40,770 nucleotides of DNA from Desulfuromonas sp. TF (GTDB lineage: Bacteria; Desulfobacterota; Desulfuromonadia; Desulfuromonadales; ATBO01), in contig NZ_KI421424.1 in NCBI RefSeq assembly GCF_000472285.1, positions 124,442 to 165,211 on the forward strand, in the 5' to 3' direction. Below the pieces are notes generated by a model that searched no databases, had not been told where the DNA came from, and saw nothing but the letters and a program-made list of their open reading frames with translations. Made by a program: the position numbers and the translations under genes. Of the stretch, positions 47 to 14,492 are shown piece by piece. The first letter of the stretch is position 1. Each line of letters begins with the position of its first letter.

Positions 47-92
47 CGTCCCTGGTCGGTTGACCCGACGGGTGGTTTTTACATTTATCCAC

Positions 93-120
93 TTGACAAA
101 ATAACAGCGTTATATAAGAC
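93..120 (+). promoter_or_regulatory. Promoter region of the corrinoid/C1 operon with putative GntR operator
   Basis: A consensus -35 hexamer TTGACA lies at 93-98. An A/T-rich segment that could hold the -10 lies at 111-120 (TATAAG or TAAGAC), though the spacing is 14-16 rather than 17, so the -10 is not sharply defined. Overlapping it at 102-118 is TAACAGCGTTATATAAG, which contains the palindrome TTATATAA. It matches a motif found just after the -10 of the gntR gene (10307-10326, minus strand). This suggests, by inference, an operator where a GntR/FCD protein would block RNA polymerase. Confidence 0.5.
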
Positions 121-133
121 TGTATGCAGCATC

Positions 134-164
134 GAATTCATTGGTGAATTCACGGTAGAATTCA
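134..164. repeat. Three direct repeats GAATTCA at exact 12-bp spacing in the operon leader
   Basis: GAATTCA occurs at 134, 146 and 158, so three identical heptamers sit one helical turn and a bit apart. The middle copy is inside a perfect 10-bp palindrome GTGAATTCAC (144-153). The repeats are between the promoter and the first gene. They could be a second regulator-binding array or an RNA structural element. No function can be assigned from the sequence alone. Confidence 0.6.
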
Positions 165-214
165 AAGAATCATCATCGACTCCAGGGTGCTGTCGATAGG
201 GATTGGGTAAGCCG

Positions 215-1648
215 ATGAGAAGTGTGCGTCACTGGTCGGTTCGTCATGCACGGAGCATGGAGCTCTTCTACAAGGGCTTTTGCCGGATCTTGCCGTTGCT
301 GCGGGCCGGTCTCTCATTGCTGGGCCGGAAACGCTCAGACCGCTTATTGGCAGCCGTAGAAAGCAGGTTGAAGGGGATCCTTTTCGATTGCCGGATGTGC
401 GGACAGTGTGTGCTCTCCGCGACCGGCATGGCGTGTCCCATGAACTGCGCAAAGCGGCTGCGCAACGGCCCCTGCGGCGGCGTGACTGCCGAGGGTTGCT
501 GCGAGGTCCACACGGACATGCCTTGTGTCTGGCTGGAAGCGTTCAAAGGTGCCGGGCAGATGGCCATGCATACGGAGATCGCCAGGATACAGCCTCCCGT
601 CGATTACAGCAGGGAGGGTTCTTCCAGTTGGCTCGAGATTGTACTGGGCGAAAAATGTACCCCTGCCGAAAATCAACCTCCAGCACCCTCACCGCCGGAA
701 CGGCAGCCGGCGGCCTTCGAGCAGGCCTGCCGGTCGGGGCGTTTCCTGGTGACGGCGGAAATTTCCCCTCCCGATTCCGTGGATCCCCAGGACCTGTTGA
801 TAAGGGCCGGACACTTTCGCGGGCTGGTCGATGCCGTCAATGTGACCGACAGTGCCGGCGCCAATTGCCACATGTCGAGTCTGGCCGCCTCGACAATCCT
901 TGCCGCCGGCGGATATGCCTCCGTTTTCCAGACCGGTTGCCGTGACCGCAATCGGATTGCCATCCAGGCCGATCTCGTGGGAGCGGCTGCGCTTGGAGTC
1001 CGCAACCTGCTTTGCCTGACGGGCGACGACGTCAAATCCGGTGATCACCCCCAGGCCCGTCCGGTGTTTGACCTCGACGCCGTCTCCCTCCTGGAGATCG
1101 CCAGCGGCATGCGCGATCGTGGCGAATATGCTTCGGGACGACGCTTGTCCTCGATCCCGAACCTGTTCCTTGGCTCTACGATCAGTCCTTTCGTACCGAC
1201 ACTCGAATCCCGTCTCGTGAACCTGGAGAAGAAGATCGAGGCGGGCGCACAGTTTATCCAGACCCAGTTCTGTTTCGATCTCGAAATGTTCAAGAAATTC
1301 ATGGTCGAAGTGCGGGCGCGCGGGCTCGAGCAGCGCTGTCGGATCCTGGTCGGGGTCGGGCCGCTGGCTTCGGTGCGCGTCGCCCGCTGGCTGAACGGCA
1401 ATGTGCCGGGCGTGGTGATTCCTGACGGAGTGATCCGGCGTATTGAACAGGCAAATGATCCGAAGCTGGAAGGAAAGAAGATCTGCATCGAGACCATCCA
1501 GGCCCTTCGGGAGATTGCCGGAGTTGCCGGTGTCCACTTGATGGGTCACCGCAACGAACATGTTCTCGCTGAAATTATTGTTGAATCGGGTGCCGCGCAG
1601 CGTGTTCAAACGGCCGCCGATCCCTCCCGGCGCCTCCGTGTCGGATAA
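215..1648 (+). CDS. Fused MetV-like/MetF methylenetetrahydrofolate reductase
   Basis: This protein interconverts methyl- and methylene-tetrahydrofolate, here probably oxidising methyl-THF produced by the downstream methyltransferases. Residues about 40-105 form the cysteine-rich MTHFR_C (MetV-like) domain, with C59, C62, C65, C74, C78 and C87 in the order CxxCGxC...CPMxC...GPCGG. Residues about 180-460 form a MetF-type TIM barrel (EISPPDSVDP, NVTDSAG, CLTGDD, QTQFCFD). In acetogens these two parts are usually separate proteins. ATG 215 gives 477 aa and keeps the SVRHARSMELFY segment, which I remember as common N-terminal to this domain. An in-frame TTG at 203 is an alternative; neither has a strong ribosome site. 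It is the first gene of the operon. It lacks an obvious NAD(P)H-binding partner domain, so the electron acceptor is unknown. Confidence 0.88.
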   Translation: MRSVRHWSVRHARSMELFYKGFCRILPLLRAGLSLLGRKRSDRLLAAVESRLKGILFDCRMCGQCVLSATGMACPMNCAKRLRNGPCGGVTAEGCCEVHTDMPCVWLEAFKGAGQMAMHTEIARIQPPVDYSREGSSSWLEIVLGEKCTPAENQPPAPSPPERQPAAFEQACRSGRFLVTAEISPPDSVDPQDLLIRAGHFRGLVDAVNVTDSAGANCHMSSLAASTILAAGGYASVFQTGCRDRNRIAIQADLVGAAALGVRNLLCLTGDDVKSGDHPQARPVFDLDAVSLLEIASGMRDRGEYASGRRLSSIPNLFLGSTISPFVPTLESRLVNLEKKIEAGAQFIQTQFCFDLEMFKKFMVEVRARGLEQRCRILVGVGPLASVRVARWLNGNVPGVVIPDGVIRRIEQANDPKLEGKKICIETIQALREIAGVAGVHLMGHRNEHVLAEIIVESGAAQRVQTAADPSRRLRVG

Positions 1649-1692
1649 GCAGTGGGCCTTGTTTTACCCAGTATCAGGAACCGAGGTGAATG

Positions 1693-2334
1693 ATGAGCGA
1701 CAAGGAAAAGCTGGTCGAACTGATTGCCGAGATGGAAGAAGAAGACGCCCTCGTCCTGGCGCAAGAGATGCTGGATGGCGGAGTCGATCCTCTGGTTGTG
1801 CTCGATCTCTGCCGCGAAGCCATGGATATCGTAGGAAAGCGTTTTGAGGAAGGGGAATATTTCCTTCCCGAGTTGATCCTGGCCGGGGAGGTGCTCGACC
1901 AGATCGGCGCCATGACGAAGCCGTTGATCCAGCAATCGCCGGACAGCCCGTCGCGGAAGCTTGGACGGGTGTTGATCGGGACTGTGCATGGCGACCTGCA
2001 CGACATCGGTAAAAACATCGTCACCTTCATGCTCGACATCAACGGTTTCGAGGTGAAGGACATCGGGATCGATGTCCCGGTGGCCAGATTCATCGAAGAA
2101 ATCAAGGCGTTTCAGCCGAATGTCGTCTGCTTGAGCGGCTTCCTGACGCTGGCCTTCGATTCGATGAAAGAGACGATCGAGGCGATCGAGGCTGCCGGCA
2201 TGCGTGACAAGCTGAAGATTCAGATCGGCGGCGGCCAGATCGATGAGACAATCCGCGCCTACACCGGCGCCGATGCTTTCGGATTGAATGCGGTGGATGC
2301 CGTGACCTACAGCCGCAAATGCATGGGGGAGTGA
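1693..2334 (+). CDS. Methyltransferase corrinoid (cobalamin-binding) protein
   Basis: This is the methyl-carrying corrinoid protein of a two- or three-component methyltransferase system, similar in layout to MtaC, MtbC or MttC. Residues about 5-85 are the helical B12-binding-2 cap. Residues about 90-210 are the Rossmann B12-binding domain with the DxHxxG motif (D-L-H-D-I-G, around residue 101), in which the histidine is the lower axial cobalt ligand. The later SGFL and IGGG segments contact the nucleotide tail in the family. A GAGGTG ribosome site at 1683-1688 is too close to ATG 1690, so ATG 1693 is preferred. It sits 4 bases before the URO-D-type methyltransferase gene, its probable partner. 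Confidence 0.92.
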   Translation: MSDKEKLVELIAEMEEEDALVLAQEMLDGGVDPLVVLDLCREAMDIVGKRFEEGEYFLPELILAGEVLDQIGAMTKPLIQQSPDSPSRKLGRVLIGTVHGDLHDIGKNIVTFMLDINGFEVKDIGIDVPVARFIEEIKAFQPNVVCLSGFLTLAFDSMKETIEAIEAAGMRDKLKIQIGGGQIDETIRAYTGADAFGLNAVDAVTYSRKCMGE

Positions 2335-2338
2335 TGTC

Positions 2339-3583
2339 ATGACTGACCAGACCGGGCCCGCACGTTATGCAGAGAAAATGCAGCGCATCCTGGATGCGGT
2401 CGCGCTGCGCCAGACGGATCGCGTTCCGACCGCGTTTCAAGCCTCGTTCTGGCTCGCCCGCTATGGCGGCATTACCAATCGCGAGCTGATGTACGACTAC
2501 GACAAGGCCTGCGAGATCTTGCAGCGGGTTCTGCTCGAACTCGATCCGGACCTGTACTACCCGGTCCATGTCACGACCCTCGGCCCGGTTTGCGAGAAGA
2601 TCGGTTTCAAGCAGATCGAGTGGCCCGGGCACGGAGTCGGCGACAACCAGCCCTTTCAATACATCGACCGCGAGTACATGACGGCCGACGAATACGACGA
2701 CTATATCTTCGACCCGACCGGTTATTACCTGGGCAAGTATCTGCCGAGGATCGCCTCGGCCTTCGAAGGAATCGAGGAGTTGCCGAAGTTCGCCGGACTC
2801 TACTATCACCAGCTGGTGGTCAATATGCGTCATTTCGGCAATCCCGGAGCCGTCCGGGCTCTGGCCGCCCTGCAGGAAACGGCGGCGGAAGCGCAGCGCC
2901 TGGCCGAACACCGGGCGGCTTTCACCAGGAAGATGGCGGATCTGGGCTATCCGGCCTCGCATGCGGTCGGCACCAATGCTCCCTTCGATTACTTCGGTGA
3001 TTTCTTCCGGGGCGCCAAGGGGATCCTCACAGACATGCGACGCCGCCCGGACAAGCTGCTCGAAGCCATGGACAAGGCGCTGGTGCTGCTCCTGCGCCAT
3101 GCGATCGCCGGCGCCAAGGCGAGCGGCAACAACTTCGTGTTCATCCCCATCCACTGGGCGCCCGATTCCTTCATGTCCCAGGATCAGTTCAAGAAGTTCT
3201 GGTGGCCGCAGTTCAGGCAGATGCTGCTCGGCCTGATTGAAAACGACCTGATCCCCGTCTGCCTCTGGGAGTCGGTCTGTACCAAGCGTATGGAAGTGAT
3301 CGGCGACATCCCGGCAAAAAAAGCGATTTACTGGTTCGAGCGCAGCGACCTGGTCGAAGCCAAGGAGGTGCTGGGCGATGTCGTCTGCCTGCGCGGCAAC
3401 GTCTCTCCATCCTTGATGGCCACGGGAAACCCGGAAGAGGTGGATGCGGCCTGCCGTCGCCTGATTGAGAATGTCGGCAAGGACGGGGGCTTTATCCTGG
3501 ACTGCGCCTTCGGCGTCCCCGATGAAAGTCCGTTGGAGAATGTAAGGGCGCTGTACCGGTCGGTGCATAAGTATTCGGCCTGA
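2339..3583 (+). CDS. URO-D-fold corrinoid methyltransferase
   Basis: The 414-residue protein has the uroporphyrinogen decarboxylase fold shared with the methyltransferases MtaA, MtbA and CmuA. Its place beside a corrinoid protein points to methyl transfer, not haem synthesis. The C-terminal family segments are present (GNVSPSLMATG; FILDCAFGVP followed by SPLENVRALYRSV). The usual zinc-binding His-X-Cys of MtaA/MtbA-type enzymes is not seen: the corresponding stretch near residues 304-312 reads PVCLWESVC. One cysteine remains in the FILDCAFG segment, the usual place of the third ligand. It is either the substrate-specific methyltransferase of the pathway or a divergent member with different metal use. 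A purine-rich ribosome site (GGGGGAGTGA) precedes ATG 2339. Confidence 0.85.
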   Translation: MTDQTGPARYAEKMQRILDAVALRQTDRVPTAFQASFWLARYGGITNRELMYDYDKACEILQRVLLELDPDLYYPVHVTTLGPVCEKIGFKQIEWPGHGVGDNQPFQYIDREYMTADEYDDYIFDPTGYYLGKYLPRIASAFEGIEELPKFAGLYYHQLVVNMRHFGNPGAVRALAALQETAAEAQRLAEHRAAFTRKMADLGYPASHAVGTNAPFDYFGDFFRGAKGILTDMRRRPDKLLEAMDKALVLLLRHAIAGAKASGNNFVFIPIHWAPDSFMSQDQFKKFWWPQFRQMLLGLIENDLIPVCLWESVCTKRMEVIGDIPAKKAIYWFERSDLVEAKEVLGDVVCLRGNVSPSLMATGNPEEVDAACRRLIENVGKDGGFILDCAFGVPDESPLENVRALYRSVHKYSA

Positions 3584-3591
3584 GGAAGACC

Positions 3592-4260
3592 ATGGCAGTT
3601 GTTGCCGACATCGATCTGTCCAGGGCTTTTGCCGCCGCGATGAAGCGGCCGCGGGCCGCGGGGCCCGCGCTGAAGGCCCGGCAGGAGTCCCTGTCATTGA
3701 TCGTATCCGAGTCACTGGTTGCGCCGAAGTGCAGCTTTCGGAACATCGCATCGAGGGAGCTCCTCGGCACCCCTGCAGAGCTCCTTCTAGGGGATGGGGC
3801 CTTGCAGGCGCCGGGAGTTGAAGCCGTTGGCGGGTTGAACGGAGTCACGGCCGTGGCCTGCACCCTGGGTCCCGCCCTTGAACAGCGGGTTTCCACTCTA
3901 TGTGTCGAGCGCAAGTTGTCCCTGGCGCTTGCCCTGGATGAACTGGGCAATGAACTGCTGATTTACACCGTGCGCCTTGCCGCACGGAAAGTGCGGGGCG
4001 AGGCCCGGCGGCTGGGCTTATCGACGGGCGACATGCTGACGCCGGGCGGTCGGGGCCTTTCCCTTGATCAGCAGGCCAAGGTTGTCGGGCTGGCCGGGGG
4101 TGAACAGATCGGGATTACCGTCACGCAAAAGGGGATGCTCTGGCCCGTGAAGTCGCGGTCCATTCTGGTGAACGTCGGCAAAGGACTTACAGCGAAGCCT
4201 TGGCGCAGGCGCTGTGACACCTGTTCTTCGAGGGAACAATGCAGGTATCGGACGCGTTGA
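3592..4260 (+). CDS. Stand-alone B12-dependent methionine synthase activation-like domain protein
   Basis: The 222-residue protein resembles the activation domain of cobalamin-dependent methionine synthase (MetH), which binds S-adenosylmethionine for reductive re-methylation of inactive cobalamin. Recognisable parts are ACTLGPALEQRV, LALALDELGNELL, RLGLSTGDMLTPGGRGLSLDQQ and the strand GITVTQKGMLWPVKS. No methionine synthase catalytic domains are present. The C terminus has a CX2CX5C motif (CDTCSSREQC) not typical of MetH, which may bind metal or an Fe-S cluster. The GAGGAA ribosome site is 5 bases before ATG 3592. The end overlaps the RACo-like gene by 22 bases, so the two are probably translationally coupled and act together in corrinoid repair. 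Confidence 0.8.
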   Translation: MAVVADIDLSRAFAAAMKRPRAAGPALKARQESLSLIVSESLVAPKCSFRNIASRELLGTPAELLLGDGALQAPGVEAVGGLNGVTAVACTLGPALEQRVSTLCVERKLSLALALDELGNELLIYTVRLAARKVRGEARRLGLSTGDMLTPGGRGLSLDQQAKVVGLAGGEQIGITVTQKGMLWPVKSRSILVNVGKGLTAKPWRRRCDTCSSREQCRYRTR

Positions 4261-6047
4261 CAAAAGAGCCGACCCGACGGGTGGTCCATTTCGCCGGCCT
4301 GGACCTGGTCATCGAAGTCGTCGGGGGGGAGACCCTTCTGCAATGTGCTCGGCGGACCGGTATGCGCATGGTCGGCGCCTGCGGCGGGGAGGGCGCCTGC
4401 GGCAGTTGCGCGTTCCGGATTATTTCCGGAAAGGTTGAATTCCTGGATGGAGATGTCGATGATCGGCTTTCTTTCGAGCAGGGCAACCAGTGGATGCGTG
4501 CCTGCCGGATTCGGCCGGTCACGGACTGTGTCGTGGAGGTGGCGCCCCGAGCTTTCGCCCAGGTCGTCCGAACCGATGCCGAAGCGGACGATGACGACGC
4601 GGCATTTCCATTCTCCCCTCTCGTCTCCTCCTTTGATGTCGAGATGGCTCACCCAGCCTTGGCGGAGAACGGTGGCGACTTTGAACGCCTCCTGAACACT
4701 CTCGGCAAGGAACGGATCCGGTGCTGCGACCTCGGCGCCCTGCAGCAACTGCCGCCCATGCTGCGTGAGAACGACTGGCGGCTGCGTGCCTGTGAACGCG
4801 ATGGTGAGCTGCTCGGCGTGATTCCGGTCGGGAAGCGGCTGCTTGGGCTTGCCGTTGATCTCGGCACCACCAATGTGGCGGCATACCTTATCGACCTGGA
4901 AACGGGAGCACGCCTGGCGAGCCTCGGCCTTGAAAATCCCCAGGTGGCTTATGGCGCCGACCTGATCAGCCGGATGAACCATGCAATCCGCCTGAGTGGA
5001 GGTCAGCGCGAGCTGCAAAGGGCCGCGGTCGAGGCGATCACCACTCTGGCCACGGACCTTTGCAGCGCCGTTTCGGCAAGCCCCGACGAAATCGCCGATA
5101 TCACCCTCTGCGGCAATACGGCCATGCATCATCTCCTGCTGGGTCTGCCGGTGTCGCAGCTGGGACGCGCCCCCTTTGTTCCGGCGGCCTGCACGGCCCT
5201 CGACATCAAGACCCGCGACCTCGGAATCTCCGTCCTTCCGGGAGCCTATCTGCATGTCCTGCCCAACATCGGCGGCTTTGTCGGCGGAGACCATGTCGCA
5301 ACGCTGCTCGCCACGGAAAAGCACTGGACGGAGGGGACGAGCCTTATTGTCGATGTCGGAACAAACACGGAAATTTCACTGATTCATCATGGCACGATCG
5401 TCACTGCCTCCACGCCCTCGGGGCCGGCGCTCGAAGGCGGAAACATTTCTTCGGGGATGCGTGCCGCCCATGGCGCGATCGAGCGGGTCCGATTTTCCTC
5501 CGGCGACCTGCAGTTGGAAGTGATCGGAGGCGGCATCCCGGTGGGAATCTGCGGCTCGGGTGTGGTCGATGCGCTGGCGGCACTGAGCAGGGCGCAAATC
5601 ATCGACCGGCGCGGGCGCATCTGCCTGGGCCATCCCGCCGTCAGGGAGGCCGGCGACAGACGCGAATGCCTGCTGGCCCCGCAGGTGGCCTTCACCCAGG
5701 AGGACGTGCGTGCAGTCCAGCTGGCCAAGGCGGCGATTCGCGCTGGGATCGATCTGCTCATCCGGGAATACGGACTGGTCGAGTCGGATATAGATCGGGT
5801 GGTGATCGCCGGAGCGTTCGGTGTTTACCTCGACGTGCGGAGTTGTATCCGGATCGGGATGTTCCCCGACATCCCCCGGGAGCGGTTTACGCAGGTCGGC
5901 AACGCCGCCGGCGCCGGGGTGCGGATGACGCTGACTTCACGGGACGCCCGTGAAAAGGCCGGGGAGCTGGCGGTGCGCTGCCGTCATTTCGATCTGAGCA
6001 CCCAGCCGGACTTCCAGAAGGTTTTCATGAAACGGATTGGTCTATAA
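4239..6047 (+). CDS. RACo-type reductive activator of corrinoid proteins (2Fe-2S ferredoxin plus DUF4445)
   Basis: This ATP-dependent activator returns accidentally oxidised Co(II) corrinoid to Co(I). Residues about 14-105 are a plant-type 2Fe-2S ferredoxin domain with C48, C54, C57 and C89 (CGGEGACGSC ... RAC). A linker follows. From about residue 205 comes the ASKHA/DUF4445 ATPase-like region, with VDLGTTNVAAYLIDL, VDVGTNTEISLI and VVIAGAFGVYLDVRS as phosphate- and adenosine-binding segments. The length of 602 aa is typical of RACo/RamQ relatives. It lies between the SAM-type activation-domain protein and the methyl-THF methyltransferase, as expected for a corrinoid C1 operon. The electron donor is not encoded nearby. 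Confidence 0.92.
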   Translation: MQVSDALTKEPTRRVVHFAGLDLVIEVVGGETLLQCARRTGMRMVGACGGEGACGSCAFRIISGKVEFLDGDVDDRLSFEQGNQWMRACRIRPVTDCVVEVAPRAFAQVVRTDAEADDDDAAFPFSPLVSSFDVEMAHPALAENGGDFERLLNTLGKERIRCCDLGALQQLPPMLRENDWRLRACERDGELLGVIPVGKRLLGLAVDLGTTNVAAYLIDLETGARLASLGLENPQVAYGADLISRMNHAIRLSGGQRELQRAAVEAITTLATDLCSAVSASPDEIADITLCGNTAMHHLLLGLPVSQLGRAPFVPAACTALDIKTRDLGISVLPGAYLHVLPNIGGFVGGDHVATLLATEKHWTEGTSLIVDVGTNTEISLIHHGTIVTASTPSGPALEGGNISSGMRAAHGAIERVRFSSGDLQLEVIGGGIPVGICGSGVVDALAALSRAQIIDRRGRICLGHPAVREAGDRRECLLAPQVAFTQEDVRAVQLAKAAIRAGIDLLIREYGLVESDIDRVVIAGAFGVYLDVRSCIRIGMFPDIPRERFTQVGNAAGAGVRMTLTSRDAREKAGELAVRCRHFDLSTQPDFQKVFMKRIGL

Positions 6048-6062
6048 ATTCGAGGAGTAATC

Positions 6063-6941
6063 ATGCAGAAATTTAAGCTCAACGTCCTGGGCGAAAGAAT
6101 CAACCCGGGTTTCAAGAGTACCCGTGCCCTCTTTGAAAATGAGGACTTTGCCGGCATCCAGGCTCTCGCTGTCAGGCAGGTGGAAGCCGGCGCCTTTGCC
6201 CTGAACGTCAACGCGGGCACCCGGGCCATGAAAGATCCGCAGTTCATGGCGGAAGTGATCCGGGCGATCCAGGCGGCGGTTTCCGTGCCGCTCTCCTTTG
6301 ATTTTCCAAACGCCGAGGTCCAGGAAGTCTGCCTCAAGGCTTACGACCAGGAAAAGGCGGGCGGGGAGCTGCCGATCATCAACTCCATTGCCGAAACCCG
6401 CTGGGAGCTGATGGACCTTTTGAAAATCCGCCCGTTCCGGGTCATTCTCATGGGGACCGAGCGCCTCGAGGACGGCGTCGGCACGCCGAATAAAACCGGC
6501 GAGGAAATAGCCGCCACGGCCAGGCGGTCAAGCCTTCGCCTGGTGCGCGACCACGGCCTGCGCCTCAGCGACGTGTTTGTCGATATTTCCGTCAGCGCCC
6601 TGATCGCCGATACGACGGGGATGACCCGTGCCACCCTCGAAGGGATCCGTCTGATCGGCAGCGACCCTGATCTGGCCGGCATCAATATCTCCGGCGGACT
6701 CAGCAATATCGGCCAGCAGCTGCCGAGCAAGGCCGCCGATGGTTCAGCTCTCAAGGAGCAGCTCGAATGCGCTTTTCTGACCGTTGCCGTTCCGGCCGGC
6801 ATGAATACGGTGCTGGGCACGCCCTGGAAAGAATACGGACCGTTGCCGGAAGACAACTACGTGATGCAGACCTTCCGCGACTTTATCGAACTCACCGGGG
6901 GCAAGGCGCTCCGCCAGGTGCGGAGGTTTTACCGGTCATGA
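6063..6941 (+). CDS. Methyltetrahydrofolate:corrinoid methyltransferase (pterin-binding family)
   Basis: This 292-residue TIM-barrel protein of the dihydropteroate synthase-like family transfers a methyl group between a corrinoid protein and tetrahydrofolate, as AcsE and MtgA do. Visible family elements are LNVLGERINPGF at the N terminus, ALNVNAGT near residue 50, IINSIAE near 105 and DISVSALIADTTG near 180, which line the pterin pocket. A clear GAGGAG ribosome site precedes ATG 6063. In this operon it probably moves the methyl group from the corrinoid protein to THF, feeding the MetF-type enzyme at the start of the operon. The stop overlaps the next start (ATGA). Confidence 0.9.
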   Translation: MQKFKLNVLGERINPGFKSTRALFENEDFAGIQALAVRQVEAGAFALNVNAGTRAMKDPQFMAEVIRAIQAAVSVPLSFDFPNAEVQEVCLKAYDQEKAGGELPIINSIAETRWELMDLLKIRPFRVILMGTERLEDGVGTPNKTGEEIAATARRSSLRLVRDHGLRLSDVFVDISVSALIADTTGMTRATLEGIRLIGSDPDLAGINISGGLSNIGQQLPSKAADGSALKEQLECAFLTVAVPAGMNTVLGTPWKEYGPLPEDNYVMQTFRDFIELTGGKALRQVRRFYRS

Positions 6942-8170
6942 GCCGCCATTATGCCATTGTCGCCGTCAGCTACTTCGACGGCGAAAAATATTTTCCGGAC
7001 GGTCCCTATACAATGGTCGTTGAAAACGGCAACATCACCGATGTTGCGGCAGGCGATTTCACGGACGCACTGGAGAAACGGAAGATCCCGGTTCGGCGCG
7101 CCCCCTTCCTGATGCCGGGGTTGGTGGAAGCCCATTGTCATCTTTTCCTCGATGGCGGGCAGCTCGAGTTCCAGGCACGCAGCGAATACCTGAACGCAAC
7201 GAACGATGAAATGCAGGAAGTGGCCCGGGCCAATGTCGCGGCAAACCTGGCGGCCGGAGTGACCCTGGTCGTGGATGCCGGTGACCGCTACGGAATCAAC
7301 CACGCCATTCGCAGCGAGTCCCGAACCGTGACGGTGCGTTCGGCCGGGCTGGGACTGCGGCGGCCCGGCCGCTACGGCAGTTTCATGGCACGGGAAGTGG
7401 CCGGCCATACCGAAATCGAAGCGGCCGTGCGCGAGATCGGCAAGACGGCGGACGAACTCAAGGTGATCCTGACCGGCATCATCGATTTCGAAGCAGGGGG
7501 TGTGAAGGGAAAACCCCAATTCAACGAGGAGGAATTGCGTCTTATCGTGAGCCTGGCGCGCCGACAGGGGCTGCGCACCTTTGTCCATTGCAGCGGAATC
7601 GATGGCCTCGAAACCGCAGTGGCCGCAGGCGTGGACTCCATCGAACACGGCTTTTTCATGACCCGTGAGGTGCTGCAGGGGATGGCTGAGCAGGGGATCG
7701 CCTGGGTGCCCACCTTTTCGCCGGTCCACTTCCAGTGGCAGCATCCTGAAATTGCGGGATGGAACGGACAGACGGTCGCTAACCTGCGTCGGATTCTCGA
7801 TTCCCATCTTGAGCATGTCGGGCTGGCCGCGGAGCTGGGAGTTCCGCTGATTGCCGGCTCGGATGCCGGCAGCCATGGGGTGCGGCACGGAGCGGCTCTG
7901 ATCGACGAGCTCGATTTTTTTGCCCGGGCGGGCCTTCCCATGGAAGACATCCTGCGCGCGGCAACATCGCTGCCGCGCCAGCGTTGGGGAGTCGCCCCGG
8001 CTAGGTTGGCGGCCGGGCAACAGGCAGAGTGCGTGGCTCTTGCAGGCAGCCCGTTTGATGATCCTGTTCACCTCCACCATCTTGTGGAGGTTTTCAGGGA
8101 AGAAATCGTCTCAAAGGAACATTGTGCAGGGAATCCCGAAAAGAAGCTCCTGCGCAGTGCTGCCGGCTGA
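6938..8170 (+). CDS. Metal-dependent amidohydrolase family protein
   Basis: The 410-residue protein has the amidohydrolase (imidazolonepropionase-like) fold. The metal ligands are visible: H66-C-H68 in MPGLVEAHCHLF, H217 in FVHCSG, H237 in SIEHGFF and D309 in GSDAGSHG. The substrate is unknown. Cyclic amides, hydantoin-like rings and other C-N bonds are typical for the family. ATG 6938 is chosen because it overlaps the preceding stop and has CGGAGG upstream; a longer in-frame reading runs back into the methyltransferase gene and is not credible. Its place at the end of a methyl-corrinoid operon suggests that it opens or deacylates the methylated substrate before or after demethylation. Confidence 0.88.
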   Translation: MSRHYAIVAVSYFDGEKYFPDGPYTMVVENGNITDVAAGDFTDALEKRKIPVRRAPFLMPGLVEAHCHLFLDGGQLEFQARSEYLNATNDEMQEVARANVAANLAAGVTLVVDAGDRYGINHAIRSESRTVTVRSAGLGLRRPGRYGSFMAREVAGHTEIEAAVREIGKTADELKVILTGIIDFEAGGVKGKPQFNEEELRLIVSLARRQGLRTFVHCSGIDGLETAVAAGVDSIEHGFFMTREVLQGMAEQGIAWVPTFSPVHFQWQHPEIAGWNGQTVANLRRILDSHLEHVGLAAELGVPLIAGSDAGSHGVRHGAALIDELDFFARAGLPMEDILRAATSLPRQRWGVAPARLAAGQQAECVALAGSPFDDPVHLHHLVEVFREEIVSKEHCAGNPEKKLLRSAAG

Positions 8171-8216
8171 ATGATTCGCCGCGGTCGGGAACAGCTCTAC
8201 AACGGTGCTACATCGT

Positions 8217-8245
8217 CTGGGGGGGCATTTTCCTCCCCGGATTTT
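8217..8245 (+). terminator. Possible rho-independent terminator after the C1 operon
   Basis: CTGGGG (8217-8222) can pair with CCCCGG (8235-8240), with one G-T wobble, and ATTTT follows at 8241-8245. The stem is short and the T tract is weak, so partial read-through into the binding-protein gene is plausible. Confidence 0.35.
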
Positions 8246-8247
8246 CC

Positions 8248-8263
8248 CCTAGGGGCCCCTAGG
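8248..8263. promoter_or_regulatory. Perfect 16-bp palindrome upstream of the binding-protein gene
   Basis: CCTAGGGGCCCCTAGG is perfectly self-complementary, with no spacer. It lies 20 bases before the ATG at 8284 and just upstream of the ribosome site AAAGGAGA. It could be an operator for a dimeric or tetrameric repressor, or a hairpin in the mRNA leader near the ribosome site. No promoter could be assigned with confidence. Confidence 0.5.
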
Positions 8264-8283
8264 AGTCACAAAAGGAGATTGCC

Positions 8284-9498
8284 ATGAAAGGAAGAACGCC
8301 CGTAATGACACGAATTCGCAGCAGGATGAAAAGCCGTTTACTGGTCATTGTCTGTGGGGTGCTTATGCTTTGGGCCGGCCAGGCTGCTGCAGCCTCAGAC
8401 ACGGTCAAGATCGGCCTGGTCCTCCAGCTGACCGGGCCCTTTGCGGATTCCGGGCGCCAGATGACCAACGCCATCAAGGCCTACATGGCTCAGCATGGCG
8501 ATACCGTCGCCGGAAAGAAAATAGAGCTGATCTTCAAGGATGTCACCGGCCCGGTACCGGCGGTAGCGAAGCGGCTCTGCCAGGAGCTCGTGGTGCAGGA
8601 CAAGGTGGATTTCATCGCCGGCTTCGGCCTCACCCCCGATGCGCTCGCCTGTGCGCCGGTCGCCACCGAAGCGAAGACTCCCCTGATCGACATGCTGGCC
8701 GCGACCTCGATCATCACCACCAAGTCCCCCTACATCGTGCGAACCTCCCTCACCCTTCCCCAGGTCTCGGCGCCGATGGCGCAGTGGGCGTACGACAACG
8801 GCTACCGGAAGGCCTACACCCTGGTGGCCGATTACGGCCCGGGGCACGACGCCGAGAAGGCGTTCCAGAAGGCCTTCAAGGCCAAGGGAGGCGAGATCGT
8901 CGGCGAAGTGCGCGTCCCGCTGAAGAACCTGGAGTTCGCACCCTACATGCAGCGCATCAAGGACAGCACTCCCCAAGGCCTCTTCGTGTTCCTCCCGACC
9001 GGGCAGATGGGGATGGCCTTCATGAGGTCCTTCGAGGAGCGCGGTCTGAAGGAGGCGGGAGTGACCCTGCTCGCCACCGGTGACCTTCTCGACGACGGTG
9101 CCATGGATTCGATGGGGGATGCCACTTTGGGGGTGATTTCGACCTATCATTACTCGGCCGCCCATGAATCCCCCGAAAATGCCGCCTATCTGGAGGCCTA
9201 TCGGAAAATCGATCCGAACACGCGTCCTAACGGTCATGCCATCGGCGCCTACGACGGCATGTCGGCCATCTATACCGTAATCAGGGAGCTGAACGGGAAG
9301 ATCGACGGGGACAAGGCCATGGAGATCCTCAAGGGGCTGAAAATAGCGAGTCCCCGCGGCCCGATCTACATCGACCCCGAGACGCGCGACATCGTCCAGA
9401 ACGTCTACGTGCGTGAAGCCAAGAAGGTGGGGGACAAGGTGTACAACATCGAATTCGCTACCATCGAGAACGTCAAGGATCCGGGGAAGGAGCTCTGA
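8284..9498 (+). CDS. Periplasmic ligand-binding protein, LivK-like (ABC transporter substrate-binding family)
   Basis: The 404-residue protein has an N-terminal signal peptide: a basic start, a hydrophobic stretch around residues 19-32, and cleavage after the QAAAA segment. It then has a type I periplasmic-binding fold of the branched-chain amino acid/amide class (VKIGLVLQLTGPFADSGRQ; VDFIAGFGLTPDALA; YTLVADYGPGHDAEKAF; GAYDGMSAIYTVI). It would capture a small amide or amino-acid-like ligand outside the inner membrane. No permease or ATPase genes (LivHMGF) are present in the window, so it either uses a transporter encoded elsewhere or works as a sensor. Its location between the C1 operon and the GntR regulator suggests it binds the substrate of that pathway. 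Confidence 0.9.
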   Translation: MKGRTPVMTRIRSRMKSRLLVIVCGVLMLWAGQAAAASDTVKIGLVLQLTGPFADSGRQMTNAIKAYMAQHGDTVAGKKIELIFKDVTGPVPAVAKRLCQELVVQDKVDFIAGFGLTPDALACAPVATEAKTPLIDMLAATSIITTKSPYIVRTSLTLPQVSAPMAQWAYDNGYRKAYTLVADYGPGHDAEKAFQKAFKAKGGEIVGEVRVPLKNLEFAPYMQRIKDSTPQGLFVFLPTGQMGMAFMRSFEERGLKEAGVTLLATGDLLDDGAMDSMGDATLGVISTYHYSAAHESPENAAYLEAYRKIDPNTRPNGHAIGAYDGMSAIYTVIRELNGKIDGDKAMEILKGLKIASPRGPIYIDPETRDIVQNVYVREAKKVGDKVYNIEFATIENVKDPGKEL

Positions 9499-9530
9499 TA
9501 CCGCTCAAGATGATGATTTAAGAGGAATGT

Positions 9531-9617
9531 TTCACCACGGAGTCACGGAGGAAATCAAAAGATTCAGGTTTTCTCCGTGTCTCCGTGTCTCCAGTGAGCG
9601 GAGCGAACGGGTGGTAA
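9531..9617. repeat. Intergenic inverted repeat with 8-bp internal period (CACGGAGN family)
   Basis: The left arm has CACGGAG at 9536 and 9544. The right arm has the complement CTCCGTG at 9573 and 9581. The two copies in each arm are 8 bp apart, and the ends ACCAC/GTGGT also pair. The element lies between two convergent genes and could act as a bidirectional terminator. A relative is at 35131-35198. Such hairpins are scattered between genes in many related genomes, from memory. Confidence 0.65.
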
Positions 9618-9626
9618 AAAGATAGG

Positions 9627-10268
9627 TCAGAAGTAGATGGAGTCGACGAACTCCTTGGTCGCCGCGGCATGGGTGCAGATGGCCCGCTTCGCCCGCTCCG
9701 CGTCGCGCTGCCGGAAGGCCTCGAGAATCTCTTCATGTTCCGCAAAGGCATGGGTATACCGGTCGCCGAAGAAATTGCTGATTCTGCGGCGCATGAAAAA
9801 GCGCTGATACACTTCCCTGTAAGCTTCGGATAGATAAGGACTCCCCGCCAGGTCGACAAAACAAGAGTGGAAGCTCAGGTCAAGCATGAATCGCAGCTCC
9901 CGCTTGTCAATGTCCCCCGCCCGCTTGAAATCCTGCGCTTTTTTTTCCAGTTCCTTCATTTTCGCCGGAGTCAGATTCTCGATCGATTTCGGCAGCGCGC
10001 CCAGTTCGAGAAGCACCCTGAAGTCGTGAAGGCTGTCCAGCTCTTCCTTTGAATACTGGTGTATCGTATAGCAGCTCTGGCGGGGCGCATAGTCCACGAA
10101 CCCCTCTTTCGACAGCATGATGAGGGCCATCTTGACCGGAGTCCGGCTCACCCCGAGTTTCTCGGCCAGCTCGGTGATAACTATCCGTTGGCCAGGAACG
10201 ATGTCAAAATTCAGCATCATGTCCTTGATCTGCTGATAAACTTTGTACTCAAGACTCTGATCGGGCAT
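9627..10268 (-). CDS. GntR-family transcriptional regulator, FCD (FadR) subfamily
   Basis: The 213-residue protein has an N-terminal winged helix-turn-helix (residues about 7-72: GQRIVITELAEKLGVSRTPV, then ALIMLSKEGFV). A C-terminal all-helical FCD ligand domain follows (about 80-205). Probable metal/ligand residues lie in DLSFHSCF, AEHEEILEAFRQRD and CTHAAATKEF. Regulators of this class usually repress a nearby catabolic operon and release DNA when a small organic acid or amino acid binds. The gene converges on the binding-protein gene. A motif shared by its own promoter and that of the C1 operon suggests autoregulation and control of that operon. Confidence 0.9.
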   Translation of the reverse strand: MPDQSLEYKVYQQIKDMMLNFDIVPGQRIVITELAEKLGVSRTPVKMALIMLSKEGFVDYAPRQSCYTIHQYSKEELDSLHDFRVLLELGALPKSIENLTPAKMKELEKKAQDFKRAGDIDKRELRFMLDLSFHSCFVDLAGSPYLSEAYREVYQRFFMRRRISNFFGDRYTHAFAEHEEILEAFRQRDAERAKRAICTHAAATKEFVDSIYF

Positions 10269-10306
10269 CCGTGGACCTCTTTATGTCGGTTCCGCAGGTC
10301 TAACTG

Positions 10307-10354
10307 CTTATAATAAGACGCTGTTACTATACGGTTTCTCCACCGCCGATGCAA
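10307..10354 (-). promoter_or_regulatory. gntR promoter with putative autoregulatory operator
   Basis: On the minus strand a -35 TTGCAT (10354-10349), a 17-base spacer and a -10 TATAGT (10331-10326) are visible. The motif TAACAGCGTCTTATTATAAG (10326-10307) immediately follows and would cover the transcription start. It contains a perfect palindrome CTTAT-T-ATAAG. A close copy overlaps the C1 operon promoter at 102-118. The arrangement is what one expects for self-repression by the GntR protein. Confidence 0.6.
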
Positions 10355-10457
10355 GGAAGTTTGCCTGAACCAACCACCCATTTGTAAACAGAGAATAACG
10401 GAGCGTCTATTGAGGTCCTTTTAGAGGCCGCAAGCGTGCCCGTCGCGATTTTTCCAA

Positions 10458-11987
10458 TCAGCGTGTCTTCCGATCCAGGCTCCGATACTGAATCGCCTCG
10501 GCCAGGTGCGCCTGTTTGATCTGCTCCTCCCCGACCAGGTCGGCGATAGTCCTCGCCACCTTGAGGATGCGGGTGTACGTTCGGGCGGAGAGCCCGAGGC
10601 GGTCGGTGACCATCTCGAGGAGCTTCTGTCCCTCTTCGTCCACCGGACAGAAGCGGCGGATGTGGCGGGCCTGCATCTGGGCGTTGGCGTGGAGACTGAA
10701 CTTCGCGAGGCGCTCGCGCTGGATCTGGCGGGCCCGGCCTACCCGCCCCCGGATTTCGGTGCTCGGCTCGCCGTCGCGGGGGTCGGCGAGCTCTCGGTGA
10801 CGGATGCGGGGGACCTCGACTTGCAGGTCGATGCGGTCGAGGAGCGGCCCGGAGAGGCGGGAGCGGTAGCGCTGGATCATCGGCGGGGTGCAGGTGCAGT
10901 CGTGCTTCGTGTCTCCGAGAAAGCCGCAGGGGCAGGGGTTCATGGCCGCCACCAGCATGAAGGAGGCGGGGTAGGTGAGGCTCTGCACGGCGCGGCTGAT
11001 GGTCACATGTCCATCCTCCAGGGGCTGCCGCAGCATTTCGAGAATGTTTTTCTTGAACTCGGGGAGCTCGTCGAGGAACAGGACCCCGTTGTGGGCCAGG
11101 GAGACCTCGCCGGGCCTGGGAACGGTGCCGCCGCCGATGAGCCCGGCGTCGGAGACGGTGTGATGGGGGCTGCGGAAGGGGCGAACGGCGACGAGGGCGT
11201 CTTGGCGCGGCAGCAGGCCGACGATGGAGTGGATCTTGGTCGTCTCAAGGGATTCGGGAAAGGACAGGGGAGGGAGGATGGTGGGGAGCCGCCTGGCCAA
11301 CATCGTCTTGCCGCTCCCGGGAGGGCCGACCATCAGGAGATTATGCCCTCCGGCCGCGGCGACTTCGAGGGCGCGCTTGACGTTTTCCTGGCCGCGCACT
11401 TCGGCGAAATCCTCGACGTGGACGGCAGCTCGGGCGAACAGGTCGAGGGCGTCGACCCGGCAGGGGGCCAGCTCTTTTTCGCCGGTTAGAAAGGCGACCA
11501 CTTCGCCGAGATCGCGAACTCCGTAGACCGGCAGGGAGTCGACGATCGCCCCTTCGGGGGCATTCTCTTCGGGCAGGATGAGGGCGGTGACGCCCCAGTC
11601 CTTGGCTGCCACGGCAACCGGCAGGGCGCCCTTGACCGGTTTGATGCGGCCGTCAAGGGAGAGCTCCCCCATGAAGACGAAGCGGCCTTCGCGGGCGGGC
11701 TTGAGGGCGCCGGTGGCCGTGAGCAGGCCGACTGCCATGGGAAGGTCGAAGGCGGCGCCATCCTTGCGGATGTCGGCCGGCGCCAGGTTGATGGTGATGC
11801 GCCGGGCGGGAAATTCGTAACCCGAGTTCTTGATCGCCGACTTGACCCGGTCCTTGCTCTCCTTGACCGCCCCCTCGGGCAAGCCGACGGTGGAAAACTG
11901 CGGCAGCCCCTGGGCGATATCGACTTCCACTTCCACCGGATAGGCGTTGATCCCGATCAACGCTCCGGAAAGTACCTTGGCCAGCAT
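10458..11987 (-). CDS. comM: ComM/YifB-family Mg-chelatase-like AAA+ ATPase
   Basis: The 509-residue protein matches the ComM/YifB family: an N-terminal ChlI-like domain ([19 protein letters not shown] to about residue 170), an AAA+ module with Walker [16 protein letters not shown] and Walker [11 protein letters not shown], a cysteine cluster ([15 protein letters not shown]), and a C-terminal Mg_chelatase_C domain ([17 protein letters not shown]). In Vibrio, ComM is a hexameric helicase promoting branch migration during natural transformation; in other bacteria the role is less clear. The start has a GGGGG-rich ribosome site directly upstream. It lies 34 bases downstream of trxB and is probably co-transcribed with it. 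Confidence 0.93.
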
Positions 11988-12021
11988 AATCCCCCTCCTG
12001 ATTGTCTTTTACGAGTATTTC

Positions 12022-12948
12022 TTACAGCCCCTCCAGGTATTTCTCCGCCATAATGGCGGCCACGGCGCCGTCTCCGACGGCGGTAGCGATCTGTTTGAGG
12101 ATCTTCTTGCGTACGTCGCCGGCGGCGAAAACGCCCGGCATGGAGGTGCGGCATTCGGCATCCGTCAGGATATAGCCATCCTCATCGAGATCGAGAACCT
12201 CTGCGATAAAATGGGCCTTGGGGGTGACGCCGATGGCAACGAAGAGGCCCTGCAGATCAAGGCAGCGTTTTTCGCCGCTGACCGTATCCTTCAGTTCCAC
12301 CGCCTGAAGACCCGAGGCGTTCCCTTCGGCCCTCACGACGGTAGTGTTCCAGAGAATCTCTATCTTGTCATGGGCAAACAGGCGCTCCTGGAGGATCTTT
12401 GTCGCCCGGAGCTCGTTCCGGCGGTGAATGACATAGACCTTGCTGGCGAAGCGGGTGAGGAACAAGGCCTCCTCGGCGGCCGTGTCGCCTCCACCGGCGA
12501 TGGCCACGGGCACTTCGCGGAAGAAGGCGCCGTCGCAGGTGGCGCAGTAGGAGACGCCGCGGCCGGTGAGTTCGGTTTCGCCCGGAACGCCGAGCTTGCG
12601 CGGTTCGGCTCCGGTGGTGATGATCACGGTGCGGGCGCGGACTTCCTTGCCGTCGACGGTCAGGACTTTCTCCCGGCCTCGGTCTGAAAGGCTTTCCACC
12701 TCACCATATTCAATTTCCAGCCCGAATTCCTGACAATGTTCCTGAAAGCGCACCATCAAGTCGGGGCCGTCAATGCCCCCGGGAAAACCCGGGTAGTTTT
12801 CTACCTTGGTGGTGGTCATCACCTGACCGCCCATGATCATACGCTCCACCAGAAGAGTCCTGAGCTGGGCGCGGGAGGTATAGAGACCGGCGGTGAGGCC
12901 TGCCGGACCGCCGCCGATGATGACGACGTCATAAAGGGACTGGGACAT
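12022..12948 (-). CDS. trxB: Thioredoxin reductase
   Basis: This flavoprotein transfers electrons from NADPH to thioredoxin. The 308-residue chain has the FAD-binding GGGPAG motif (residues 12-17), the redox-active pair C135-A-T-C138, the NADP-binding GGGDTA near 157 and the C-terminal FAD segment GVFAAGDVR. Its length is typical of the low-molecular-weight bacterial enzyme. It is divergent from the CDF exporter gene, with 160 bases between their starts, and is followed by comM on the same strand. Confidence 0.95.
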   Translation of the reverse strand: MSQSLYDVVIIGGGPAGLTAGLYTSRAQLRTLLVERMIMGGQVMTTTKVENYPGFPGGIDGPDLMVRFQEHCQEFGLEIEYGEVESLSDRGREKVLTVDGKEVRARTVIITTGAEPRKLGVPGETELTGRGVSYCATCDGAFFREVPVAIAGGGDTAAEEALFLTRFASKVYVIHRRNELRATKILQERLFAHDKIEILWNTTVVRAEGNASGLQAVELKDTVSGEKRCLDLQGLFVAIGVTPKAHFIAEVLDLDEDGYILTDAECRTSMPGVFAAGDVRKKILKQIATAVGDGAVAAIMAEKYLEGL

Positions 12949-13108
12949 GGTTGCTGCTCCTTGAGGAAATTAAGGCCAAACCATAGCACAGGCTGATTCA
13001 AATGGGAACCGGTTGCGGCTGGACGAAAAGAAAGGGAGCGGGACGAACATACACCCTTGATTCGGCGGAGGGCACGGTCTAGAATAGGCACAGACCGGGA
13101 GGCCGCGC

Positions 13109-14074: not shown

Positions 14075-14138
14075 TCAACGGGGAAGGTATTCCATAGGTT
14101 ATCGCATTCTCCTCACCATCGCTCGAGCCTGAACCGTT

Positions 14139-14492
14139 ATGAAGCGTATTGTCCCAGCACTGATCTGGACCTCTCTTTTCCTCGTACTTTTAGCGGGAGT
14201 GGACCAGTTTTTTCTCCGCGTTCCAACCACCGTGCCGATCCTGACAGAGGTGCGCGCTTTCTATCTCGATTTCCGCAGCCGCCTTGCCCTTCTTGGCGGA
14301 TGGAGGCAGGAACTCACCCTCGAGTCGGTGATCGAGGAGACCGCCGCCGAGCCCCTCCTCCGTTCTCCCCGCTCCGGTGGGAGCGCTCCCCGTTACCTTT
14401 ATGCCGACCGCCGGGGCGAACTGCATTTTGCGGACACTCTGAAAGAGATTCCCCCGGAATATCGCAAGGAAGCCCAATCTCTGGAAAATTAG
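14139..14492 (+). CDS. Small membrane-anchored protein with DUF4124-like tail
   Basis: The 117-residue protein has one N-terminal hydrophobic segment (residues about 5-26), which may be an uncleaved anchor or signal peptide. Its C-terminal motif (YLYADRRGELHFADTLKEIPPEYR) resembles DUF4124 (YxxxDxxGxxHFTDxxxxIPxxYR), found in many periplasmic proteins of Proteobacteria. Its function is unknown. The stop overlaps the stop of the convergent amidase gene by 4 bases. Confidence 0.75.
   Translation: MKRIVPALIWTSLFLVLLAGVDQFFLRVPTTVPILTEVRAFYLDFRSRLALLGGWRQELTLESVIEETAAEPLLRSPRSGGSAPRYLYADRRGELHFADTLKEIPPEYRKEAQSLEN

Follow-up and report, generated by a model that had tools for sequence, protein, structure and literature searches.

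Acetogens, with a few archaea, are the best-known hosts of corrinoid-dependent O-demethylation (described in part in PMC13222342 and PMC8359953). The O-demethylases of acetogens, such as MtvB of Moorella thermoacetica and OdmB and VdmB of Acetobacterium dehalogenans, combine a methyltransferase of the UroD superfamily (MT1) with a corrinoid protein, a second methyltransferase (MT2) and a RACo-type activating enzyme, and they pass the methyl group to tetrahydrofolate (THF) (partly after PMC13222342). The chloromethane dehalogenase CdmBCA of A. dehalogenans is likewise built from a URO-D-type MT1, a corrinoid protein and an MT2, but its substrates are haloalkanes instead of methoxy-aromatics, and the available part of PMC13222342 names neither a MetVF protein nor an amidohydrolase for it. 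According to the same text, CdmB belongs to the UroD superfamily, with MtvB, OdmB, VdmB and MtoB as near relatives; all four are URO-D-type MT1 proteins and aromatic O-demethylases. The type 1 mlp clusters of Kountz and Balskus also contain URO-D proteins, a corrinoid protein and a reductive activase; they differ in having two to three Mlp proteins near CoM methyltransferases and a proposed methyl-S/Se substrate (available text of PMC10418091). A literature search yielded no paper that we recognised as describing the cassette reported here; the study of anaerobic aromatic degradation in Sulfuritalea hydrogenivorans by Sperfeld, Diekert and Studenik (2018) may overlap with it.

Gene content and conservation of the operon

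The window, a stretch of 40,770 nucleotides from Desulfuromonas sp. TF, had been described in a preliminary way as carrying a methyl-corrinoid demethylation operon. Sequence and family searches found all nine named genes in the order given there. They include an MT1 and an MT2, a corrinoid protein with its activator, and an enzyme for methyl-THF oxidation, which supports a demethylation operon of that kind. The features are as follows.

134..163, no strand: two overlapping palindromes GAATTC-N6-GAATTC (134-151 and 146-163) upstream of metVF, candidate GntR/FCD operator
203..1648, + strand: metVF, MetV-like domain (DUF5981) fused to methylene-THF reductase (PF12225, E 2.4e-25; PF02219, E 2.7e-36)
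1690..2334, + strand: corrinoid protein, methyl carrier on cobalt (PF02310, E 2.5e-20; PF02607, E 1.3e-14)
2339..3583, + strand: URO-D-fold methyltransferase, proposed MT1 (O-demethylase) (PF01208, E 1.7e-23; CdmB 9rui, E 1.9e-38)
3592..4260, + strand: MetH-activation-like protein with a C-terminal CX2CX5C motif (profile A5 to 1j6r, E 1.8e-6)
4239..6047, + strand: RACo-type ATP-dependent corrinoid activator (PF14574, E 6.8e-75; PF17651, E 4.5e-49; Fer2, E 2.7e-10)
6063..6941, + strand: pterin-binding methyltransferase, proposed MT2 (methyl-corrinoid to THF) (PF00809, E 1.9e-9)
6938..8170, + strand: amidohydrolase, conserved core member (PF01979, E 1e-23, scored with an upstream start)
8284..9498, + strand: periplasmic aromatic-acid-type binding protein (PF13458, E 5.8e-64; 4ey3, E 1.2e-125)
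9627..10268, - strand: GntR/FCD regulator, convergent to the operon (PF07729, E 7e-23; PF00392, E 1.4e-12)

The genes from metVF (TTG start at 203, alternative ATG at 215) through those for the corrinoid protein, URO-D protein, MetH-activation-like protein, RACo and MT2 to the amidohydrolase gene form a seven-gene block with intergenic distances of -22 to +41 nt; the binding-protein gene follows after 113 nt, and gntR lies beyond it. The complete set of seven recurs at 32 of the 80 top-ranking URO-D relatives, so that the grouping is not due to chance. Four other Desulfuromonadia have a URO-D protein at least 76% identical to that of the window. Three of them keep all seven genes in identical order, while the fourth (G246, L013/L069) has six; metVF was not found there, with about 2 kb of contig present past the corrinoid gene. 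Homologous cassettes are otherwise found mostly in Alpha- and Betaproteobacteria, and carriers of the cassette with the amidohydrolase include Aromatoleum anaerobium (L077), Azospirillum sp. TSO22-1 (L088) and Paramagnetospirillum caucaseum (L105). In comparison with the acetogen systems, the operon adds metVF, the MetH-activation-like protein and the amidohydrolase, and its hosts are not acetogens.

The preliminary description had regarded the amidohydrolase, the binding protein and the regulator alike as belonging to the system. For the amidohydrolase, the comparison with homologous operons does not refute this view: its gene follows that for MT2 in 44 of 55 testable loci and is absent from 11 (two of the 57 loci with MT2 were set aside, as the contig ends there). 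Homologues of the binding protein (44-50% identical) lie near eight of the 80 URO-D relatives, and one of the 80 has a close homologue of GntR nearby; neither protein belongs to the conserved core.

The methyltransferase system and its probable substrate

The nearest solved protein to the URO-D protein is CdmB (9rui), followed by a uroporphyrinogen decarboxylase at 3.8e-7 and the MtaA-type 4ay7 at 0.0074. Through the published kinship of CdmB, the protein may also lie close to MtvB, OdmB and VdmB. A motif scan of the URO-D protein detected no H-x-C, the zinc motif of type 1 mlp and CoM-type methyltransferases, and in this respect, as in its distance from MtaA, it is unlike the proteins of type 1 mlp clusters. 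Among the nine genes, a family search found no MttB-type protein, and the URO-D protein remains, as had been proposed, the sole MT1 candidate. The corrinoid protein has two B12-binding domains with the DxHxxG motif at residue 102, the RACo protein carries a 2Fe-2S domain, and the nearest solved structures to MT2 are methyl-THF:corrinoid/FeS methyltransferases (2yci, 1.4e-12; 4o0q, 4.4e-10). With genes for MT1, MT2, the corrinoid protein and a reductive activase side by side, the operon has the gene set of a corrinoid/THF-dependent O-demethylase system. As a single sequence, the 222-residue MetH-activation-like protein gave no Pfam or NCBIfam match and nothing usable in other searches. A 32-sequence profile of its family (alignment A5, the window plus 31 of 51 listed loci) reaches the methionine synthase structure 1j6r; hmmscan of the 32 members gave Met_synt_B12 in two (best E 0.023), and the three cysteines of CX2CX5C are conserved in all 32 rows.

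By sequence and by fold, the binding protein is nearest to binders of benzoate derivatives. Its best phmmer matches are 4ey3, 4eyg and 4eyk (E 1.2e-125), and the best fold matches of its model are 4f06 (Z 53.2) and 4eyg (Z 52.2); structure titles name vanillic acid as ligand for 4eyg and 4-hydroxybenzoate for 4evs (RPA0985), which is strongly stabilised by that compound (available text of PMC3223731). It thus resembles the aromatic-acid ABC binders of Rhodopseudomonas palustris (4ey3/4eyg, 4f06, 4evs; E 1.2e-125 to 6.3e-100, Z 52-53) but is unlike them an orphan with no adjoining permease gene. Sister operons (L011, L012) have a TRAP binding protein in its place.

The surroundings of homologous cassettes point in the same direction. 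Genes for Rieske/VanA, VanB-like, LigA, LigB or PobA proteins lie in 14 of 33 cassette loci (628 kb) against one of 60 same-genome control regions (1031 kb; p 6e-7), the one exception (L209) also containing a 35% identical URO-D paralogue; without L119, L131 and L140 the count is 11 of 30 (p 1e-5). The control regions were placed at PurU matches and at lower-scoring matches of that model, which are presumably purN and fmt, and the seed sequences of the neighbour panel were drawn from the cassette loci themselves. LigA and LigB are assigned above curated cut-offs in L140, as is PobA in L131. The oxygenase of L140 matches VanA_C of Pfam at 6.8e-51, while NCBIfam gave no VanA name to the Rieske protein, and VanB was called from reductase domains only. 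Most of the Rieske matches are just 32-43% identical to a VanA-type seed (four of 14 reach at least 63%), and some may therefore not be vanillate demethylases. The association derives from relatives whose URO-D proteins are 50-61% identical; within the window itself, no Van, Lig or Pob gene adjoins the operon.

These gene associations support methoxy-aromatic demethylation, and we suggest that the operon probably encodes an oxygen-independent O-demethylase for methoxybenzoates of the vanillate type, linked to a route that oxidises the methyl group. Its most likely function is to strip methyl groups anaerobically from aromatic acids that derive from lignin, vanillate for example, and to oxidise them. 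The preliminary description had instead favoured a methylated C-N compound (an amide, amine or betaine) that the amidohydrolase would hydrolyse. The amidohydrolase fold family does work on C-N bonds, the corrinoid protein resembles MtbC and MtgC (at scores far below the family cut-offs), and many Liv-type binding proteins, seen among the lower fold matches, bind amino acids or amides. We nevertheless consider this substrate highly improbable: the binding protein is most like aromatic-acid binders, the cassettes are associated with vanillate and protocatechuate genes, none of the nine genes is of the MttB type, the amidohydrolase also occurs in a module without URO-D, and the known URO-D-type MT1 proteins MtvB, OdmB, VdmB and MtoB demethylate aromatics (available text of PMC13222342). 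Demethylation of chloromethane by a system like CdmBCA is also very unlikely. CdmB is the nearest solved relative and the two systems share MT1, corrinoid protein and MT2, but the match is remote, with a main stretch spanning residues 165-412, and an aromatic-acid binding protein and neighbouring vanillate and protocatechuate genes would make no sense for a gas.

In the methoxybenzoate pathway that we infer, direction of flow and individual enzyme activities included, the periplasmic protein would capture the aromatic acid for a permease encoded elsewhere. The URO-D protein would take the methyl group off the methoxy oxygen and load it onto Co(I) of the corrinoid protein, from where MT2 would pass it to THF; RACo, perhaps together with the MetH-activation-like protein, would re-reduce inactive Co(II). 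MetVF would oxidise methyl-THF to methylene-THF, which FolD and formate dehydrogenase, encoded beside several sister cassettes, could convert to formate and CO2. FolD lies near seven of 80 loci against none of 60 controls, and FdhA is above cut-off in L012 and L100. For the demethylated ring, the benzoyl-CoA pathway would be the next step; Oah/BamA (TIGR03200) is above cut-off in four of the five Desulfuromonadia carriers, among them the window's own genome, and not in G217.

If this is correct, the cassette extends corrinoid O-demethylation, joined to methyl oxidation, to Alpha- and Betaproteobacteria and Desulfuromonadia. VanAB, the aerobic vanillate O-demethylase, probably acts on the same substrate and adjoins some homologous cassettes (L131, L140), but it is an O2-requiring Rieske oxygenase of unrelated chemistry; hence one cell could switch its demethylation route with oxygen.

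The amidohydrolase and methyl oxidation

The six metal-ligand residues (HxH, Lys, two His and Asp, the pattern of binuclear-metal amidohydrolases) are conserved in all 41 aligned amidohydrolases, and the window's protein conforms to this type also in its fold (Z up to 44.3). The alignment (A3) comprises the window, L163 and 39 of 46 listed loci, four second copies from the same genomes and three others being omitted. Copy numbers, PurU and Fhs were assessed in 33 hand-chosen, different genomes, drawn from those 44 loci of the 80 relatives that have the amidohydrolase; the 11 loci omitted are four from Desulfuromonadia, one second locus of an included genome and six others.

The preliminary description had read the amidohydrolase as a clue to the substrate. 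We have dropped it as a sign of an amide, since it stays with a shared MetVF/RACo/MT2 module even in a G232 cassette copy without URO-D, and 32 of 33 genomes have one copy. The most likely reading is a core part with a predicted role in the shared one-carbon or cofactor section and not on the aromatic substrate.

Two reactions may be considered for it. An amidase that frees an aromatic or amino acid from an acyl-amino-acid conjugate before demethylation, or that acts on a folate-type amide, is possible but doubtful. The nearest folds, Xaa-Pro dipeptidase 2qs8 (Z 44.3), carboxypeptidase Cc2672 3mtw (Z 43.6) and ochratoxin A amidohydrolase ADH3 8ihs (Z 43.1), all cleave acyl-amino-acid amides, and G678 has three amidohydrolase places along with three URO-D proteins. 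However, the single copy persists in seven of the eight genomes with two to four URO-D proteins, and this, the G232 cassette and the fixed position after MT2 argue against a substrate-side role, though less against a folate-side one.

Hydrolysis of 10-formyl- or methenyl-THF, which might release formate and so finish the path from the methyl group, is a candidate that we regard as rather unlikely. In the five Desulfuromonadia carriers Fhs was not found and PurU was not above cut-off (weaker matches in all five, the best with 132 bits where the cut-off is 286); FolD lies immediately downstream in L163, L105, L117, L120, L142 and L144; and the G232 cluster L012 also holds a formate dehydrogenase. 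A family search gave no PurU match for the window's amidohydrolase, though another fold may catalyse the same reaction, and no relative in its fold group with known formyl- or methenyl-THF hydrolysis was found. Against this reading, 29 of the 33 other carriers have PurU above cut-off and five have Fhs, which weakens the case for a universal PurU replacement. A fuller proposal would make the amidohydrolase a core enzyme of oxygen-independent methoxyl metabolism that has so far gone unnoticed, a new kind of 10-formyl-/methenyl-THF hydrolase that closes the route from methoxyl to CO2 in bacteria without Fhs or PurU; the whole cassette would then have spread between Proteobacteria and Desulfuromonadia as a mobile means of respiring methoxyl groups from lignin. 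In our judgement this is unlikely. The cassette does turn a vague annotation as 'amidohydrolase' into a specific, testable gap.

On a URO-D tree, the amidohydrolase label changes 20 times against a shuffled mean of 35.1, a count that is not relied on, as contig ends inflate it. At L078, HutF (formimidoylglutamate deiminase, above cut-off) follows MT2 in the expected place of the amidohydrolase; as one case only, it is not counted as evidence. A HutF match at L111 lies far from the cassette, and there the amidohydrolase is present.

The regulator and the upstream palindromes

The probable targets of the GntR/FCD protein are the candidate palindromes upstream of metVF. No GAATTC-N6-GAATTC site was seen upstream of gntR itself, and a second motif common to the upstream regions of the operon and gntR (13 of 16 bases) was dropped, since the best among 30 shuffles did equally well. 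For the palindromes, two of 100 window shuffles reach four matches. The one genome with the close GntR homologue (L010/L067; 59% identical, at the operon end) has a site at the same place that matches in 17 of 18 bases, and L068 has a decayed copy of the palindrome.

Gene content, conservation and spread of the cassette

The preliminary description had named nine genes, and all of them are present: a seven-gene block with gene-to-gene gaps of -22 to +41 nt, whose sixth gene encodes a pterin methyltransferase (MT2), then the gene for a periplasmic binding protein, and a GntR/FCD gene in convergent orientation. The enzyme logic of the cassette is that of the known corrinoid O-demethylases. When searched singly, its fourth protein gave no family match; the profile of its family (32 relatives) matches the methionine synthase structure 1j6r (E 1.8e-6).

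Window 3592-4260: MetH-activation-like protein of 222 aa, with a near-C-terminal CX2CX5C motif whose three cysteines are kept in 32 of 32 relatives

Judged from its sequence, this motif could provide ligands for a metal or an iron-sulfur cluster. Together with RACo, the protein makes two activators within one operon, which was unexpected.

Relatives of the URO-D protein, the proposed first methyltransferase (MT1), occur in 5 of 277 genomes of the class (E up to 1e-40), including the 4.40-Mb genome in which the window spans C13:124442-165211, and the amidohydrolase occurs in the identical five among 271 (E up to 1e-50). Four of these carriers keep the order metVF-corrinoid protein-URO-D-222 aa-RACo-MT2-amidohydrolase; the fifth (G246) has six of the seven genes, and metVF was not found there despite about 2 kb of contig past the corrinoid gene. 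Phylum-wide, a URO-D relative (E up to 1e-30) is encoded in 40 of 395 genomes. Twenty neighbourhoods from this list were inspected, several on short contigs and with URO-D proteins about 35-46% identical; a corrinoid protein was found near the relative in 12 of the 20, and the cassette-type amidohydrolase in none.

From a wider genome scan, the best 80 of 450 URO-D relatives were retained as loci (L-numbers). Five of these are Desulfuromonadia, one is an acidobacterium, and the remainder are, by record title, mostly Alpha- and Betaproteobacteria; these last include Aromatoleum anaerobium, Azospirillum sp. TSO22-1, Paramagnetospirillum caucaseum, Sulfuritalea, Sterolibacterium, and Thauera phenylacetica, whose locus is interrupted by a contig end. 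The full seven-gene set is found at 32 of the best 80 loci, and URO-D alone or with the corrinoid protein only at 20, on contigs that are often short. Because the Desulfuromonadia form one small group amid Pseudomonadota rows on a quick, midpoint-rooted URO-D tree, lateral transfer of the cassette is suggested. By the title of a 2005 study from Mechichi, cited in PMC6486533, a nitrate-reducing Thauera reportedly degrades methoxylated aromatics anaerobically, and an anaerobic methoxy-aromatic physiology is therefore to be expected.

Probable substrate of the cassette

Three lines of evidence, namely the binding protein, the neighbours of homologous cassettes and the kinship of the URO-D protein, point to vanillate-type aromatic acids as the substrate. 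In phmmer searches, the binding protein matched 4ey3/4eyg/4eyk at E 1.2e-125 and 4f06 at 1.8e-102. Its structure model (pLDDT 86) superimposes on 4f06 (Z 53.2, rmsd 2.0, 364 aligned), 4evs (RPA0985 with 4-hydroxybenzoate; Z 52.9), 4eyg ('vanillic' in its title; Z 52.2, 54% identity) and 4ey3 (p-hydroxybenzoic acid; Z 52.0). The unlabelled protein 4zpj (Z 47.9) and RPA0668 with 4-hydroxybenzoate (44.9) follow, and binders of amino acids, amides and urea rank lower (Z 41.4 and below). RPA0985 and RPA0668 bind 4-hydroxybenzoate or benzoate, according to an excerpt of PMC3223731.

Upstream of the cassettes of Sulfuritalea (L140) and a member of the Rhodocyclales (L131) lie genes for LigA, LigB, PobA, a VanA-type oxygenase, a GntR protein and a VanB-like reductase identified from its domains alone, and downstream a TRAP binding protein. 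Curated cut-offs were passed by LigA and LigB of L140 and by PobA of L131, and the L140 oxygenase matches VanA_C at 6.8e-51. When any of Rieske/VanA, VanB-like, LigA, LigB or PobA was counted, at least one such neighbour was present at 14 of 33 cassette loci and in one of the 60 control regions, which were taken from the same genome set (Fisher p 6e-7), with panel seeds drawn from the cassette loci themselves, 10 of 14 Rieske matches 32-43% identical and possibly other oxygenases, and controls situated at housekeeping genes, where catabolic genes may be scarce. Removal of L119, L131 and L140 leaves 11 of 30 (p 1e-5); over the best 80 loci, the same panel scores 19. The sole positive control region, L209, also contains a URO-D paralogue.

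H-x-C is the motif of the MtaA group; unlike these proteins, the URO-D sequence of the window contains none. Its nearest solved protein is CdmB. An excerpt of PMC13222342 describes the close CdmB relatives MtvB, OdmB and VdmB as demethylating methoxylated aromatics, and CdmB itself as acting on haloalkanes. The metabolism of the hosts fits an aromatic-acid substrate, given that Oah/BamA of the benzoyl-CoA pathway scores above cut-off in four of the five Desulfuromonadia carriers, own genome included (none above cut-off in G217). In the own genome, a transporter is encoded at least about 12 kb away from Oah/BamA, and its permeases could work with the window's orphan binding protein.

L165 (G000:C10:225001-240000), 5807-10438: Liv-type ABC transporter, by eye a binding protein, two permeases and two ATPases

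As far as the literature searched shows, the fixed cassette with MetVF and amidohydrolase is new, with a possible overlap in Sperfeld et al. 2018; within the same scope, its distribution across Proteobacteria and Desulfuromonadia and its occurrence alongside aerobic vanillate genes are also new.

The amidohydrolase and the fate of the methyl group

The amidohydrolase gene lies directly 3' of MT2 on the same strand at 44 of the 55 loci with room for it, and six metal-ligand residues are kept in 41 of 41 aligned proteins. Of 33 genomes, 32 have a single copy (E up to 1e-40); the exception, G678, has it in three places, one of them partial. URO-D genes (E up to 1e-60) number two to four in eight of the 33, and seven of these eight keep one amidohydrolase. 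In Aromatoleum (L077), URO-D is on the opposite strand to the other six cassette genes, and a second cassette of genome G232 (L163) reads 222 aa-metVF-corrinoid-RACo-MT2-amidohydrolase-FolD without URO-D, although a URO-D gene (37% identity) is found about 11 kb upstream. The amidohydrolase is associated with the shared module and not with MT1. At L078, the usual amidohydrolase place directly after MT2 is occupied by a gene for HutF, a formimidoylglutamate deiminase (13030-14403; over cut-off).

Since metVF is part of the operon, methyl-THF oxidation is implied. FolD lies immediately 3' of the amidohydrolase at L163, L105, L117, L120, L142 and L144, and after a TRAP gene at L068/L012; it is near 7 of the best 80 loci versus 0 of 60 controls. 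The formate dehydrogenase alpha subunit exceeds its cut-off at L012 and L100, and L163 encodes a NuoF-like protein. A further gene of L163 suggests a dedicated folate supply.

L163, 17344-18201: GTP cyclohydrolase FolE2 (folate synthesis), within the G232 C1 cassette

The amidohydrolase is a candidate formyl-THF hydrolase. Among the five Desulfuromonadia carriers, the only class genomes counted, none has Fhs or PurU above cut-off (all five give sub-threshold, purN-sized PurU matches), and in G232 FolD and formate dehydrogenase accompany the cassette. However, PurU is above cut-off in 29 of 33 other carriers and Fhs is found in 5 of 33, and the closest folds (Z 43-44) are Xaa-Pro dipeptidase, carboxypeptidase Cc2672 and ochratoxin A amidohydrolase, which cleave acyl-amino-acid amides.

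Regulation and other methyl-corrinoid clusters

A repeated element precedes the operon and, from its sequence, is a good candidate for an operator at which binding would occur.

Window 134-151: GAATTC-N6-GAATTC, upstream of metVF, with an overlapping second copy at 146-163

No such site was seen upstream of gntR. The L067/L010 genome is the only one among the best 80 loci to encode a homologue of GntR that scores over 80 bits (59% identity), and there the site recurs in the same position with 17 of 18 bases identical. A decayed version is present at L068, and the bare pattern also occurs at one unrelated locus, L097.

MT1 modules seem to have been exchanged around one common C1 module. In G232 (C35; L071/L014), a satellite pair of corrinoid protein (81% identity) and URO-D (60%) adjoins a transporter gene, MFS-type in appearance, with the rest of the cassette absent. 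The own genome holds a second methyl-corrinoid cluster, which resembles the type 1 mlp clusters in the portion of PMC10418091 describing them.

L017 (G000:C10:40000-58000), 7169-12539: corrinoid protein, two URO-D proteins, a CobW-like-looking GTPase and RACo
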